Assembly (NCBI RefSeq): GCF_021298855.1
Contig: NZ_JAJTHI010000011.1
Span: 1-61,933 of the forward strand
DNA: 61,933 bases
Source: Gemmatimonas sp.
GTDB taxonomy: Bacteria; Gemmatimonadota; Gemmatimonadetes; Gemmatimonadales; Gemmatimonadaceae
Direction: 5' to 3'
The notes beneath the pieces are model-generated. The model saw only the letters and a program-made list of their open reading frames with translations. It ran no database searches and had not been told where the DNA came from. The position numbers were made by a program, and so were the translations under genes. The stretch's first letter is position 1; every line of letters begins with the position of its first letter. This document shows positions 45,124 to 51,125 of this stretch, piece by piece.

Positions 45124-45317
45124 TCGTGTCTTGGCGGATCGCGCTTCACGGCTGGCACGCGCGCCTCGCGCTCGCGTTCTGACACGTCATTGGCGATGAG
45201 GCCGGGGCTGCCCACGCGACCATTCCAGATGACGCAGCGCTGACAGCACCGCTCGAAGTTGCGGCTCGTCCCACCGTGCTGCATCCTGTCTCTGTCGTCG
45301 GCCGCCGAGCCGGAACC

Positions 45318-48300
45318 ATGCCACTGTCTTCCACCCTGCCGGACCTGACGGACATCGCGAGCGCCGTGCCCGATACCGACGAGGACGCCCTGCACGCCGT
45401 TTCCATTCAGCTGCAGACCTTGGGAGCGTCGCGTGTGCTGCTGGGTGAGCAGGTGCTGGGGATGCACAACGCCCTGCTGTTCCTGCTGGTGTTGCGCATG
45501 GCGTACACCCCCGGCATGGCGGTGGCGCGCGACACGCTGGTGCAGGAGTTCTGGCCCGATCAGGAGGAGTCACGCCAGCGCGGGAACTTGCGGCAGGCGT
45601 TGTACAAGCTGCGCACGATGGGGGTGCGCACGGCGCTGCGTGGGGATGTGGTGCACCTCGACCCCACGCAAGTCCGGCGGAACTTCGCGCTGGCGCCAAG
45701 CGCCGACCACTTCGATCGCGATATCACGCGCGGCACGGAACCGTATGGCAGCTTTCTGCCCGGTGTAACGCCACCGACGGCGCTGCTGCAGGAGTGGCTC
45801 GACGTGACGCGCGAGACGCTGCACGGAGCGATGCGTCGGGTACTGGTGGACGTCCTGCGTCAGCGCCGGGAGCGCGCCGACTGGAAGGGGACGCAGATGG
45901 TGGCGGCGTGGCTGCTGCAGCTGGATCCGCTCAACGAGGACGCGACGCTGGCGCTGGCGGAGTGTGCGGCGCTGTCGGGGTCGAAGGCGGAAGCCGTGGC
46001 CATCCTGGACCGGTATCTGCAGGAGCTGGGCCCGGCCGCCGGCGATATTCGCCTGCCGGCGACCCTGCTGCGGCGGCGCTTCGTGGAGGCGCCCACGCGT
46101 CGGCGCGCGGTGGCGCTGGTGACGGACAAGCATTTCCATGGCCGTGACGTGGAGTTGAGCGAACACACGATGTCGCTGCGCCGCGCGCGCTGGCACGACG
46201 GCAGCGCCGTGCTGCTGCATGGTCCGCCGGGCATGGGCAAGACTCGGCTGATGCTGGAGCTCCTCAAGGTGGCCCAGGTGGAGGGGTACCGTGAGGTGGT
46301 GATGGAGTGTCGGGAGAGCATTACGACGCGTCCGTTGGGGGCGCTGATCGAAGCGCTGCCCGACCTGTTGAGTGCCCCCGGGGCCGCCGGTTGTGCGCCG
46401 GAGAGCCTCACGGTGCTGCGCAAGCTGCTGGGGCCCAACCCCATGGCCGTGGGAACGGAGGAGGCGGCGGAGGCGGCGGAGGCCGACCCCGTGTCACACG
46501 ACGCGCTGTCGGTGACGGAGCGGGTGGAGCTGGCGATTCGCACCATGCGGGCGCAGTCGATTCGTCACGCGGTCGTGGATCTCTTTGCGGCGGTGTCGGA
46601 GGAGCGTCCGATCTTCCTGCTGGCCGAGGATGTGAACTGGCTGGATGACGCGTCGTGGGAGGTGCTGGCGGACGTGATCCAGCGCGTGAACGAGATGCGG
46701 GTATACATCGTGCTGACCTCGCGTTTCGCGACGATTCGCGAAGAGCGACCGGCGCGCCTGCCGACGCCGCTCACCTACCGTCGCCTGCTGCCGTTGACGG
46801 AAGACGCGCTCGTGTCGCTGGTGCGCGGCGCGGCGGACGAGCATGGCGTGTCGGTGCCGGAGGATGTGGAGCGGTGGATCATCCGCGGGTGCGAGGGGAA
46901 TCCGTTGATGTTTCGAGCGTTGCTTGAACACTGGGCCGCCACCGGGAACGCAGATGGGATCCCCCCCTCGCTGAATGCGCTTATCGATCAACGCATCGAC
47001 CGGTTACATGCACACGCTCAACAAGCACTCAACGCGATCAGTCTACTCGGTGCGTTTGCTTCCCTTGAGCGCATTAGGGTAGTGCTTGAGTACCCCGTTC
47101 ACGAACTAGTTCTTTCGCTAGATCAGCTAGAGCTATCCGGCTGTCTGTCAACGAGTAACGCTGGCCTTGTCGTAACCCACAGTCTCGTCAAGCAGGCAGC
47201 ACTCCGTCGAATGTCCCCTCTAATCGAGGCCGCACTACGAGCATCAATTGGCGAGAAATTGGAGGCAGAGTACCTGCGTACTGGCGATTCCGTGACATTA
47301 CATGAGGCGCTGATGCATGTGGAGTTCAGCGGAAGACCGGAAGTACTCCACCAGTTTATCTCCAAATACGACGAGTCTCTCATCGAAGGAGGTCGGCCTA
47401 TTGGCGTAAAGCGCGCGATAAACACCCTCCTCTTTACAACACCGCGCCTGTTCGATGATCGACGCTTTGTGATTCTGCAGCGACGTCTAGACACTCAAGC
47501 AGGAGCATACCGCAGCGCAGTAAGCAGCTATCTCGGGACGATTGAGATGCCTACAGATATTCGTAAGCACAGCGTTCCTGATATCGAAGAACTAATCGCT
47601 ATTGCGGCCTCCGCACTTCGTGCAGACCCATCGATCGATCGGGAGGAACTGGCTAGGTTTTCCAGCGACGTTGCGAATCAAGCGCGTCTGCCTCTAGCGA
47701 CCCGCATACGAGCAGCAGAGGTTGGCCTAACCATCACCGCAAACACCTGCGACAGCAACACCGCAGCGATCTGCTATTCTGCGCTTCAATCGGAGTTACA
47801 AGGAAGCGAATACCCGGACGCTTCTTTGCGCCTTAGGATTTTGTATCACGCCATCTTCGGTGAACTATCTACCGCAGTAGCCGTTGCGCGAGAGATTGTC
47901 GATCGTTGCGAACGCAGGCCGTCCTCCACTACGGTTGCAGAAGACCTCAGCAGAGCTGCGTTCGCCTTCAGACTCTGTGGAGACTGGGAAAAGGCGACTT
48001 CGCTCTTCTCGAAGCACTTCGAGATGGCAGAGCAACTTGGCGCTCGGCGTCTAGGACTGTATTCCGCGTGGCAAATCGCTCAGATCGAGCTAGAGCGAGG
48101 CGATCGGTCTCGCGTTCTGTTCTGGAACAAGAAGCTTGCCGAGATCGTCGCGGAGGAGAACGACCCGATTTCCACGTGCTTCGTCATTGGTCACTTCTGC
48201 CGATGCGCAATCGACGAGAAAGATCAATCATCAGCGCGCCGCTACCTCGAAATCGCCAAAGCTGGTCAGCCGAAGCTTCCTGCGGTGAAAGCCTCTGCCT

Positions 48301-48575
48301 ACGTGATTGCACTTGAACTAGGGTGCGAGCTCTTGAAAAAAGACTGGGAACCCAACGATGCGCTCTTGGAAGTAGCAATCCAGCGTCATCGGCGGACCTG
48401 CCGATTCGCTACTTCTGACTTTCTTACGGCGGTTCTCGCGGAAGCCATGCACCGACGTGGGTACAAGCTACACGCCGCCGAAATGATCGATGACTATACG
48501 AAGAACGCGCGACGAGAACGGGGTCCTCTATCGCGCGCACTGACTCTGATTGCGAATAAGCTTGCCTCTTCCTAG
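45318..48575 (+). CDS. BTAD-AAA transcriptional regulator, compositionally chimeric
   Basis: A 1085-residue regulator. Residues about 20-110 form a winged-helix output-like domain (FWPDQEESRQRGNLRQALYK), about 110-245 a BTAD-type helical domain, then an AAA/STAND ATPase with Walker A LLHGPPGMGKTRLMLEL and Walker B FLLAEDVNWLDDASW. From about residue 620 there is a TPR-like helical array to the end. Such proteins are signal-dependent activators. From near 46960 the base composition falls from about 73% to 48% GC on counted lines while the frame stays open, so the 3' half has a different origin. A GTG at 45276 is an alternative start. Confidence 0.85.
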   Translation: MPLSSTLPDLTDIASAVPDTDEDALHAVSIQLQTLGASRVLLGEQVLGMHNALLFLLVLRMAYTPGMAVARDTLVQEFWPDQEESRQRGNLRQALYKLRTMGVRTALRGDVVHLDPTQVRRNFALAPSADHFDRDITRGTEPYGSFLPGVTPPTALLQEWLDVTRETLHGAMRRVLVDVLRQRRERADWKGTQMVAAWLLQLDPLNEDATLALAECAALSGSKAEAVAILDRYLQELGPAAGDIRLPATLLRRRFVEAPTRRRAVALVTDKHFHGRDVELSEHTMSLRRARWHDGSAVLLHGPPGMGKTRLMLELLKVAQVEGYREVVMECRESITTRPLGALIEALPDLLSAPGAAGCAPESLTVLRKLLGPNPMAVGTEEAAEAAEADPVSHDALSVTERVELAIRTMRAQSIRHAVVDLFAAVSEERPIFLLAEDVNWLDDASWEVLADVIQRVNEMRVYIVLTSRFATIREERPARLPTPLTYRRLLPLTEDALVSLVRGAADEHGVSVPEDVERWIIRGCEGNPLMFRALLEHWAATGNADGIPPSLNALIDQRIDRLHAHAQQALNAISLLGAFASLERIRVVLEYPVHELVLSLDQLELSGCLSTSNAGLVVTHSLVKQAALRRMSPLIEAALRASIGEKLEAEYLRTGDSVTLHEALMHVEFSGRPEVLHQFISKYDESLIEGGRPIGVKRAINTLLFTTPRLFDDRRFVILQRRLDTQAGAYRSAVSSYLGTIEMPTDIRKHSVPDIEELIAIAASALRADPSIDREELARFSSDVANQARLPLATRIRAAEVGLTITANTCDSNTAAICYSALQSELQGSEYPDASLRLRILYHAIFGELSTAVAVAREIVDRCERRPSSTTVAEDLSRAAFAFRLCGDWEKATSLFSKHFEMAEQLGARRLGLYSAWQIAQIELERGDRSRVLFWNKKLAEIVAEENDPISTCFVIGHFCRCAIDEKDQSSARRYLEIAKAGQPKLPAVKASAYVIALELGCELLKKDWEPNDALLEVAIQRHRRTCRFATSDFLTAVLAEAMHRRGYKLHAAEMIDDYTKNARRERGPLSRALTLIANKLASS

Positions 48576-49903
48576 GCTACGGCAGGCGTTCGGACCTTCT
48601 TTCGAATCGACTCCATCATTTGCGTTAGGGAGAGAATCTTTCCGGAATCCGAATAGTCAAAGAGGCGGTTGAAATCAGGCGACTGAAGCAGCGCGTCACA
48701 GATATCCGGATCAAATTGTGTCCCCCGAAACTTTGCCAGCTCTGCACGCACCTCAGTCTCACCCAATGCCTTTCTGTACGGGCGGTCGGTTGTCATGGCA
48801 TCGATGGTGTCGGCGAACATGATGATCCGCGAGGCCAAAGGTATTTCCCGTCCTTTCAGCCGGTCAGGGTACCCCGTTCCGTCCCAGTTCTCATGATGGT
48901 GACGAACTGCGGGTACGATGTCCTGTAGCTCGGAGATCTTCGCAACCAGTTCTGCGCTCTTTACAGGGTGCAGCTCCATGATGGCACGCTCCTCCGGGGT
49001 GAGCCTTCCAGGCTTCATCAAGATCGGAGCGAAGACTTCATGGATCTTTCCGACGTCATGGAGCAGCGCAGCTTTAGAGACCTTTTCGATCTCTTTGGCT
49101 GGAAGACCGATCACCTCGGCGATGATCCGGGAGAATCGTCGAACTCGCTGTGAGTGACCGGAGGTGTACGGATCCCTAAATTCAACGGTCTGCACGAACA
49201 GTTCGAGCAATTCCTTATTTGTGGTCTCTAACTGGTGCTTGGACTGGTAGGTGAGCCGGAGTCCGATGATCAAGGCACAGAGAGTTAACACTCCCCAACC
49301 GCCCCAATCCACGTAAGCGCGCGCAAATCCGTAAACGACGAACACTGCGACAACGTCGTAAAGCACCCCCGCGACGTTGCCTTCGTACCAAAGCCTGATG
49401 ATGCTCTTGCCTTCCGCAAGTCCGACGGCTGCTGCGACAGCGAGGGTGTTCAGCAGCAGGAAGGCAACGACCGCAACGACGTGAGGTAGGGCACGGAACG
49501 TTGGATCAACCTGTAGTGCCTTCCCACCCAGAGCGCCATAGACGGCAATAGATACGCAACCTGCAAAGACAATCTGTCCAACGTTGAACGCTCGCTTGAG
49601 CGCCATCTTTGGCCGGAAGAACTCAGCAATGAGCCAACCGGCTCCGACCATGGCGACCGTGGCCCAAGACGGGTAGAGCACGAACGCGGTCAGGAATGGA
49701 ATAAACGAAACCGCACCGAAAGTACTGCCACGTACTCGATAACTGAGCGCACTGCCGAGTATTGAAACCGCAGTCAACCAAGCGGAGCCTACGAGCAGCT
49801 TGAGCTCGACACTTGGTTGGTACCAATACAAGCCGACAAGCGCTGCCGCAGCAGCGGCAACGATCGCATAAACGTACGCGACTACGCTTGTCTTCATGGA
49901 CAT
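48572..49903 (-). CDS. Membrane HD-GYP domain protein
   Basis: A 443-residue protein. About seven membrane helices (residues 5-220) form a MASE-like sensor. After a short coiled linker (TTNKELLELFVQTVEFRD) comes an HD-GYP domain with ALLHDVGKI and HHHENWDGTGYPDRLKG, plus the supporting FADTIDAMTTDRPYR. HD-GYP domains hydrolyse cyclic di-GMP or related dinucleotides. The stop overlaps the end of the convergent BTAD-AAA gene by four bases. A 23-residue peptide gene lies 37 bases upstream on the same strand. Confidence 0.9.
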   Translation of the reverse strand: MSMKTSVVAYVYAIVAAAAAALVGLYWYQPSVELKLLVGSAWLTAVSILGSALSYRVRGSTFGAVSFIPFLTAFVLYPSWATVAMVGAGWLIAEFFRPKMALKRAFNVGQIVFAGCVSIAVYGALGGKALQVDPTFRALPHVVAVVAFLLLNTLAVAAAVGLAEGKSIIRLWYEGNVAGVLYDVVAVFVVYGFARAYVDWGGWGVLTLCALIIGLRLTYQSKHQLETTNKELLELFVQTVEFRDPYTSGHSQRVRRFSRIIAEVIGLPAKEIEKVSKAALLHDVGKIHEVFAPILMKPGRLTPEERAIMELHPVKSAELVAKISELQDIVPAVRHHHENWDGTGYPDRLKGREIPLASRIIMFADTIDAMTTDRPYRKALGETEVRAELAKFRGTQFDPDICDALLQSPDFNRLFDYSDSGKILSLTQMMESIRKKVRTPAVA

Positions 49904-49940
49904 GGTTTTAGAGACGCCCCGTCAACCTTCTCAACTCAGG

Positions 49941-50012
49941 TCAACCCCAAATCTTGAGGTCAGCGTGCAGCATCGACCAAAGTGCATTCACGAGCTGGGC
50001 CATGAATTCCAT
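49941..50012 (-). CDS. 23-residue microprotein with near-perfect ribosome site
   Basis: The minus strand has AAGGGAGGTGA, six bases, then ATG and a 23-codon frame ending in TGA. The ribosome site matches eight of nine bases of AGGAGGTGA and is the strongest in the window. The product starts MEFMAQLVNALW and ends in DLKIWG: hydrophobic, with two Trp, three Met and likely an amphipathic helix. It lies 37 bases before the HD-GYP start, so it may be a leader peptide, a secreted signal or a small membrane partner. No other gene is seen in 49904-50204; a plus-strand frame there lacks a ribosome site. Confidence 0.55.
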   Translation of the reverse strand: MEFMAQLVNALWSMLHADLKIWG

Positions 50013-50204
50013 CGAACGTCACCTCCCTTCGGGTCAGTCACGTGTGCCCCGCTCGGGACCCCACGTGCTCGATCTAGGTTGGCTCCGCTCCTACTGCTTG
50101 GCCTGCCCGCTCAGCTCCGCTCTAGACGGCTGACGGGGACGTTTGGGATGTCGTCGTGTCGATGACGAATAAGGGTGATGTGTATGGACGCGTGCGTCCG
50201 CGCT

Positions 50205-51125
50205 CTACCGATCGAGGTGCACCCACCGGTTGGTCGCGTCGAGTACGCTCAACACCGCACTCGTTTCCGCGCTCTCCCGGATCTCGCAGCTACCCGTGAG
50301 ACAGACCGGCTCGCGACCGATACGCGCCGATACGCTCACGAACACGAACTCACGATCGAAGGCCTCGATGAGCTTGGCGCCCTCCAGCGACAGGCTCCGC
50401 TCGCCCCCCACCGTGGACTTCATGGCTGTACCGATGGCCAGCAACGTCGCCCGCGCCGCCAACTCGATGCGCGATCGCTCCGATTCCTGCCCCTCGGCCT
50501 CACCGAAATACTCCTGCCCGTCTCGCGACAACGTCACGCGGCACAGTACCCCGCGCGAACGCGAACGCCGCACCTCGACATCCTCGAAAATCAGCAGCCG
50601 ACGGCCAGCCGACAGGTCGGGAGCCGTCGCCACCCCTAGGGACGATCGAGCGCGCCCAAAGGTACCAGACGTGAACTCGGCGGGGACGACATCCGGCGTC
50701 GCCGCCGGTGCACCCGCGGCAGCCGACCCGCCGGAGGGGGTGCCTCCAGCTACGAACGGCATGGGCGCGGACGGGGTGCCCGCCGCCGGCGCCCCGCCGG
50801 CGATGGCACTCAATCCCGCAACCGCCGAGGACTCAGGCGCCGTGTCCATGGCCCGCGGCGCATCGAGCGTGGTCGCCACCGAAACCTTCCGGTGGTTCAC
50901 CCGCAACCCCAGCTGCGCCATCAGCGCGCTCTCGATGTTGCGCACCGTGTTCTTGGGCGGAACCTGGTCGGTGGTGAGCACGTGGATCTCCTCCACGGCC
51001 CCCGACTCGCCCGGCACAATTCGCACCGAAATGACCCCCGGCAGGGTCGCAATGAGCTCCTCGGCGCGACGGAGCGGCAGCACACTGCCGGCGATGGCAC
51101 CGGGGGCCGCCGACGGGGTGCTCAT
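50205..51125 (-). CDS. Hypothetical two-domain protein
   Basis: A 306-residue cytoplasmic-looking protein. An N-terminal alpha-beta domain (VLPLRRAEELIATLPGVISV, NTVRNIESALMAQLGLRVN) is joined by an Ala/Gly/Pro-rich linker (about residues 105-165) to a C-terminal domain (DVEVRRSRSRGVLCRVTLSR, ARATLLAIGTAMKS). The two domains look like small, possibly ligand-binding folds; I do not recognise a family with confidence. Composition is back to the high GC of the chromosome. Confidence 0.65.
   Translation of the reverse strand: MSTPSAAPGAIAGSVLPLRRAEELIATLPGVISVRIVPGESGAVEEIHVLTTDQVPPKNTVRNIESALMAQLGLRVNHRKVSVATTLDAPRAMDTAPESSAVAGLSAIAGGAPAAGTPSAPMPFVAGGTPSGGSAAAGAPAATPDVVPAEFTSGTFGRARSSLGVATAPDLSAGRRLLIFEDVEVRRSRSRGVLCRVTLSRDGQEYFGEAEGQESERSRIELAARATLLAIGTAMKSTVGGERSLSLEGAKLIEAFDREFVFVSVSARIGREPVCLTGSCEIRESAETSAVLSVLDATNRWVHLDR

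Follow-up and report, generated by a model that had tools for sequence, protein, structure and literature searches.

How does one uninterrupted reading frame come to have two base compositions? In the window analysed here, a stretch of 61,933 nucleotides from a Gemmatimonas species, the GC content falls abruptly in the middle of the gene for a 1085-aa regulator. The first-pass annotation of this DNA proposed that the signal-sensing half of the regulator had been replaced by foreign DNA, which also brought the convergent HD-GYP gene and a microprotein gene. The locus thus raises the questions of whether the low-GC block is foreign and of what its parts do together.

GC step inside the regulator frame

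The GC content per 300 bp is 66-72% upstream of about 46,950, 53-57% from 47,000 to about 50,100, and 64-73% beyond. The drop from about 69% to about 55% lies at 46.91-46.99 kb, within the uninterrupted frame 45276-48575. The GC3 change point is at residue 546 (window position 46,911), where GC3 goes from 0.87 to 0.56 with a likelihood-ratio statistic of 129. Residues of the regulator are numbered here from the GTG at 45276; the earlier numbering is lower by 14. The ATG at 45318, proposed earlier as the start, looks right because the sister species carries a stop codon between the GTG and this ATG. A break in composition without loss of frame was confirmed, but its size had been overstated by hand counts (73% to 48%, as compared to about 69% to 54-55% measured here). 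The block 46990-50150 has a GC content of 0.555. In a 307-kb sample of the same genome, which served as background, 508 windows of 3 kb gave a mean GC of 0.691 with a standard deviation of 0.016, and none was below 0.60. The low GC of the block is therefore far outside the range of chance.

Exchange of the sensor half, HD-GYP gene and peptide as one block

The genome of the window (G000) was compared with that of its sister species (G015). The flanking proteins are 93-99% identical and the HD-GYP proteins 73%. Within the regulator, identity is 96% over residues 61-360 and 32% over residues 661-1090, with a change point at residue 554 (95% before and 38% after). DNA identity is about 86-98% (mostly 90-98%) left of 46,900, about 30-84% inside the block, and 90-100% from 50,000 on. 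By this measure, the whole cassette replaced relative to the sister species spans 46911-49998. In other close pairs, the left junction is at residue 389 (G001/G022), 716 (G017/G028) or 660 (G029/G024) of the regulator. The right junction in sister pairs always falls within about 100 bp of the ribosome-binding site of the peptide, where identity returns to 92-100%. In four divergent sister pairs, the membrane part of the HD-GYP protein is 44-88% identical versus 78-100% for its catalytic part. In two sister pairs, the GC changes where the identity does (546/549 vs. 554 and 387/390 vs. 389); the two change points are mismatched in G029/G024 (314/295 vs. 660) and G017/G028 (675/679 vs. 716).

Trees of the flanks agree with that of the N half of the regulator, and the sensor-half tree agrees with the HD-GYP tree on the key groupings. 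The latter two place G000 with G017 and G005, and G015 with G028/G003. In AU tests, the grouping of G000 with G015 was rejected by the sensor half (P = 1.8e-30) and by HD-GYP (P = 6.8e-10), and the grouping of G000 with G017 and G005 was rejected by the N half (P = 4e-8) and by the flanks (P = 2e-58). The trees were built under LG+G4 with no mixture model and the sensor-half tree is long-branched; only well-supported shallow groupings were used. Residue 21 of the peptide (T versus other) requires 7-8 changes on the flank and N-half trees and 3 on the sensor-half and HD-GYP trees, which indicates that the peptide type travels with the cassette. Covariation between peptide and receptor can be explained by linkage alone, both being inherited together, and partial Mantel tests within the inner group give weak correlations (r of about 0.24-0.37).

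These data show that close relatives exchange, as a unit, one allelic cassette made up of the sensor half, the 23-aa peptide and HD-GYP, in the last mainly the membrane domain. The left junction is clade-specific and lies inside the regulator frame, and the right junction is constant, at the ribosome-binding site of the peptide. All cassette haplotypes keep a low GC. The earlier claim that the three parts moved together is thus supported by the identity steps in sister pairs, the trees and residue 21 of the peptide, and the two halves of the regulator, as had been supposed, do not share one phylogeny.

Alternative cassettes were also found within a single metagenomic bin of another genus (G109). 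Two of its contigs share a 238-bp stretch at 99.6% identity inside the NTPase-coding region. After this stretch, identity is about 45% in the sensor half and about 50-75% in HD-GYP, the peptides differ (MTYLTALICSLCLGGWITSA vs. MTYLVSLITFALGGWMVTTG), and identity is back to about 96% at the leader RNA. A GC step occurs at the same left junction. G109 is best read as two strains that differ in the cassette they carry at this locus. Several bins have contig breaks here, and only those of G109 were used as evidence of polymorphism.

The low-GC block as a resident of the family

The phylogenetic conflict between the two regulator halves is what one would expect if low-GC foreign DNA had recently been imported into this lineage, as the first-pass annotation held. 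However, regulator orthologues are present in nearly all Gemmatimonas genomes examined and in other Gemmatimonadaceae genera, and most of them drop from high to low GC in the same way, with GC low through the HD-GYP gene and high again beyond it. G020 and G010 have only a weak step inside the regulator. The GC4 of the HD-GYP gene tracks host GC4 across species, with a marked deficit (r = 0.58, P = 0.009), as expected of resident DNA; that of the sensor half shows no significant correlation (r = 0.27, P = 0.26). A recent foreign graft is contradicted by the orthologues, which share the step in many species and also outside the genus; the first-pass annotation had itself named such a shared shift as refuting, and we give an import of this kind very little credence. 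What stands of the replacement proposal is the separate history of the sensor half from the N half and flanks; the low GC is no evidence of foreignness. The replaced block was drawn from alternative alleles that circulate at this locus within the family and are just as low in GC, not from an unrelated low-GC donor. A break in composition within a gene thus need not signal recent foreign DNA. An assembly chimera is practically negligible as an explanation: the genome is a draft of 91 contigs, but three one-contig genomes of the genus (G020, G028 and G029) have the same organisation, the frame is open and synteny is conserved.

Low GC was also considered as a generic trait of such regulators. 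This was ruled out by 12 paralogous regulators in the genus, which have no GC step and maintain about 70-94% GC4 through the C-terminal half.

Predicted domains of the regulator and the HD-GYP protein

The conserved, high-GC N half of the regulator (45318-46910, plus strand) is predicted to comprise a winged-helix-like N-terminal domain, a helical (BTAD-like) region and a STAND NTPase. It matches Pfam AAA_16 (E = 5.9e-17). Aligned by VIA-align with STAND NTPase folds, the NTPase gave a Z score of 22.3 with 2qen (3.7 Å over 301 residues) and about 19 with plant NLRs. SARP regulators begin with an OmpR-like DNA-binding domain and a BTAD; here the N terminus is modelled by AF2 as a beta-alpha winged-helix-like domain plus helices, and the Pfam BTAD and Trans_reg_C families were absent at E 0.01. 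The swapped, low-GC sensor half (46911-48575, plus strand), delimited by the GC3 and identity change points, is predicted by AF2 to fold into a winged helix and a TPR superhelix (pLDDT 92.8). The model matches Rap (Z 20.5, rmsd 4.2, 315 residues) and MalT domain III (Z 20.1, rmsd 4.2, 324 residues) and, with lower scores, NprR (Z 17.5) and AimR (Z about 16). Unrelated TPR proteins reach similar Z scores, with APC/C subunits as high as Rap. The predicted fold is therefore compatible with peptide sensing, but it is generic and no proof of it. AAA_16, AF2 and VIA-align place the winged helix and TPR after a P-loop STAND NTPase, which is the domain order of MalT/AfsR-like regulators.

The HD-GYP gene (48572-49903, minus strand) lies in the swapped block and, as judged by Pfam and by identity, encodes a variable membrane domain (about residues 1-240) and a conserved HD-GYP domain. 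The latter matches Pfam HD_5 (E = 1.7e-35), and the motifs HDVGK and HHENWDGTGYP are intact in the translation. By its HD and GYP motifs, the protein is a predicted HD-GYP phosphodiesterase.

The peptide ORF and its leader RNA

The peptide ORF (49941-50012, minus strand) encodes 23 aa, MEFMAQLVNALWSMLHADLKIWG, and the right recombination boundary lies at its 5' end/ribosome-binding site. An ORF with a strong Shine-Dalgarno sequence is found upstream of HD-GYP in nearly every relative with this stretch assembled. The peptides are 15-39 aa long across the family and very divergent in sequence. Trp is nearly always the last or next-to-last residue in the family and is within the last six in the few others. 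Within the genus, a pN/pS of 0.43 and the invariant Trp22 indicate purifying selection on the peptide. A scan of 148 family genomes for GGGAGGTGACGC-N1-8-ATG gave about 60 sites, and the reversed control pattern gave 1 among the matches listed.

The ORF is enclosed in a conserved structured RNA (49913-50142, minus strand). The 5' strand of its P1 helix (about 50142-50127, CCCCGTC...) pairs with the 3' strand (about 49928-49913) in the gap between the peptide and HD-GYP. The P1 duplexes with their own partners have a mean energy of -25.5 kcal/mol, as compared to -19.4 ± 0.56 kcal/mol with shuffled partners (P = 2e-4). In the RNA core (50016-50090, minus strand), the GAGCGGAGCCAACC rod pairs with the Shine-Dalgarno sequence of the peptide, GGGAGGTGACGY; the rod has GA-rich internal loops and is capped by an apical hairpin that covaries by compensatory changes. 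Because the Shine-Dalgarno rod scarcely varies, covariation there is weak, and support for the RNA structure rests on P1 and the apical hairpin. The covariance model R1 has matches in 81 of the 148 family genomes, usually in one copy, and, in a 298-genome sample of the phylum, 0 matches outside the family. A search of Rfam gave no family-level match in the window stretch or 11 relatives. The RNA is next to this HD-GYP gene wherever checked.

The leader RNA contains four GAGCGG repeats. The genome of the window encodes a CsrA homologue within a 294-aa open frame (L214, C62:44386-44541); this homologue could bind the GGA repeats of the leader.

Possible functions of the cassette

We lean, with somewhat better than even confidence, to reading the locus as an allele-swapping, pherotype-like signal-receptor cassette of a peptide-linked regulatory system in the Gemmatimonadaceae, in which the exchange is seen directly in the comparisons and the signalling would be the function behind it. 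The peptide, from its tightly folded leader RNA, would be a signal or regulatory peptide, and both the TPR sensor half of the regulator and the membrane domain of HD-GYP would match its type. If so, all three would have to travel together, and the DNA-binding/NTPase half and the HD-GYP catalytic domain would stay constant. Divergent alleles would be unable to recombine internally, and the block would escape the process that keeps the flanks GC-rich (biased gene conversion or selection), such that the GC junction and the allele junction would coincide. Against this reading, the HD-GYP gene stands between the peptide and the regulator. A more specific form of it, which we put forward tentatively as short of an even chance, is a Gram-negative peptide-pheromone pherotype (kin-recognition) system. 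Here the Trp-ended peptide with its structured leader would be read by the STAND-TPR regulator and the membrane HD-GYP protein, and balanced alleles would be held as a non-recombining, GC-poor, supergene-like block.

The leader RNA may instead point to attenuation, which we regard as rather unlikely yet the strongest competitor. In this case the action of the peptide would be confined to cis: ribosomes translating the short ORF would open P1 just ahead of the HD-GYP start and so control HD-GYP translation, with variation in the peptide hitchhiking. The Shine-Dalgarno sequence is folded into the structured RNA, the 3' strand of P1 lies in the short interval leading up to the HD-GYP start, and HD-GYP has the peptide as the first cistron ahead of it. 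However, what is conserved at key places among about 40 divergent peptides is amino acids (Trp near the end), not codons, and the C-terminal residue is freely variable, unlike in known arrest peptides. Attenuation also leaves unexplained why the sensor half of the regulator is in the same exchanged block.

The match of the NTPase to STAND/NLR structures and the hypervariability of the sensor half would also suit an immune-type sensor, in which the variable half of the STAND regulator detects molecules from phages or competitors in the manner of NLR/Avs proteins, with an arms race driving diversity. We consider this improbable, since the locus has no defence-family match except weak P-loop/HD ones, it is syntenic between housekeeping-type genes across the genus, and a co-moving peptide and HD-GYP gene are not expected of such a sensor. 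Still less probable is a peptide that is antimicrobial or resembles a type I toxin, paired with matching immunity or regulation: the peptide is short, hydrophobic and Trp-containing, with a folded leader and long-range 5'-3' RNA pairing, but the locus is usually single-copy and syntenic family-wide with a regulator and a c-di-GMP-type enzyme, and the peptides often have acidic residues and are not obviously membrane-disruptive.

Comparison with known systems

The agr pherotype locus has a hypervariable block made up of the peptide, the signal-facing half of the receptor and a membrane protein. Our preferred reading, the pherotype-like cassette, gives the Gemmatimonadaceae locus a similar evolutionary layout to agr/comQXPA of Firmicutes: a single hypervariable block holds the peptide gene, the probable signal-facing receptor half and a membrane protein, next to a conserved output half, and a species can contain alternative types. 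The likeness is one of how the locus works and not of membership. No kinase family is among the Pfam matches of the locus proteins, so the pair of sensor histidine kinase and response regulator typical of those systems is missing here, as is a ComQ/AgrB homologue. In contrast to those systems, the locus has a one-component STAND-TPR regulator with the HD-GYP enzyme as a third partner, and is found in Gram-negative Gemmatimonadota. ComX has a Trp in its C-terminal region, and the N-terminal sensor of ComP is variable (PMC4008528).

The RRNPP receptors (Rap, NprR, PlcR, Rgg, AimR) have a TPR fold like that predicted for the sensor half, with the Z scores given above for Rap, NprR and AimR and similar ones for unrelated TPR proteins, and the peptide of 23 aa (15-39 aa in relatives) is within the propeptide range of 10-100 aa. 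RRNPP receptors are defined as 250-500 aa long, and RRNPP_detector was designed for Firmicutes and viruses and used on them (PMC10075063). The regulator here has 1085 aa with an NTPase, and the HD-GYP gene lies between receptor and propeptide genes, which in RRNPP systems are adjacent (-50 to 191 bp). The locus is therefore not an RRNPP member, by receptor length and gene adjacency, nor an agr/comQXPA member, by the lack of a kinase. The STAND NTPase, winged helix and TPR sensor resemble those of MalT/AfsR (SARP-STAND) regulators (MalT domain III; 8bob_C). We know of no MalT/AfsR regulator with an allele-swapping sensor cassette linked to a peptide gene. Leader-peptide and riboswitch-type leaders similarly have a structured leader, a sequestered Shine-Dalgarno sequence and a short ORF ahead of the regulated gene; the leader here differs in lacking an Rfam match and in its restriction to one family. 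No paper describing this locus was found in the library of literature searched.

If the proposed function is true, the locus would represent peptide communication or self-recognition in a Gram-negative phylum of soil and freshwater, and both the combination of its parts and the structured RNA would be new. Whatever the function, recombining flanks, presumably non-recombining alleles and a GC step at their boundary make the locus a natural setting in which to test whether GC in bacteria is raised by recombination.

Variants of the locus

Second copies of the leader RNA in G134 and G084 were considered as second loci and rejected, since they are contig-end overlaps of one locus (100% identity over 149 and 127 bp, respectively). 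In G084 (L229/L230) and G134 (L227/L158), the contigs stop at the leader RNA or shortly beyond it and share these exact overlaps of 127-149 bp, which suggests assembly branching at the right boundary of the cassette. A second RNA copy in G031 (L228, C207) differs in both its peptide, MQRLVALIMHVFSAETQSWW, and its flanks; it could represent a second locus or a contaminant. Adjoining the cassette in the window, positions 50205-51125 (minus strand) encode a conserved 306-aa protein with no match in Pfam, NCBIfam or PADLOC. In G007 (L047), a supposed tandem second regulator between the regulator and HD-GYP proved to be an IS21-type istA/istB insertion of about 3.1 kb between the two convergent genes, and all parts of the cassette are spared. 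In G009 (L083, 3439-9926), two full-length regulators stand in tandem beside a single HD-GYP gene and a single peptide; this may be an intermediate of a duplication.
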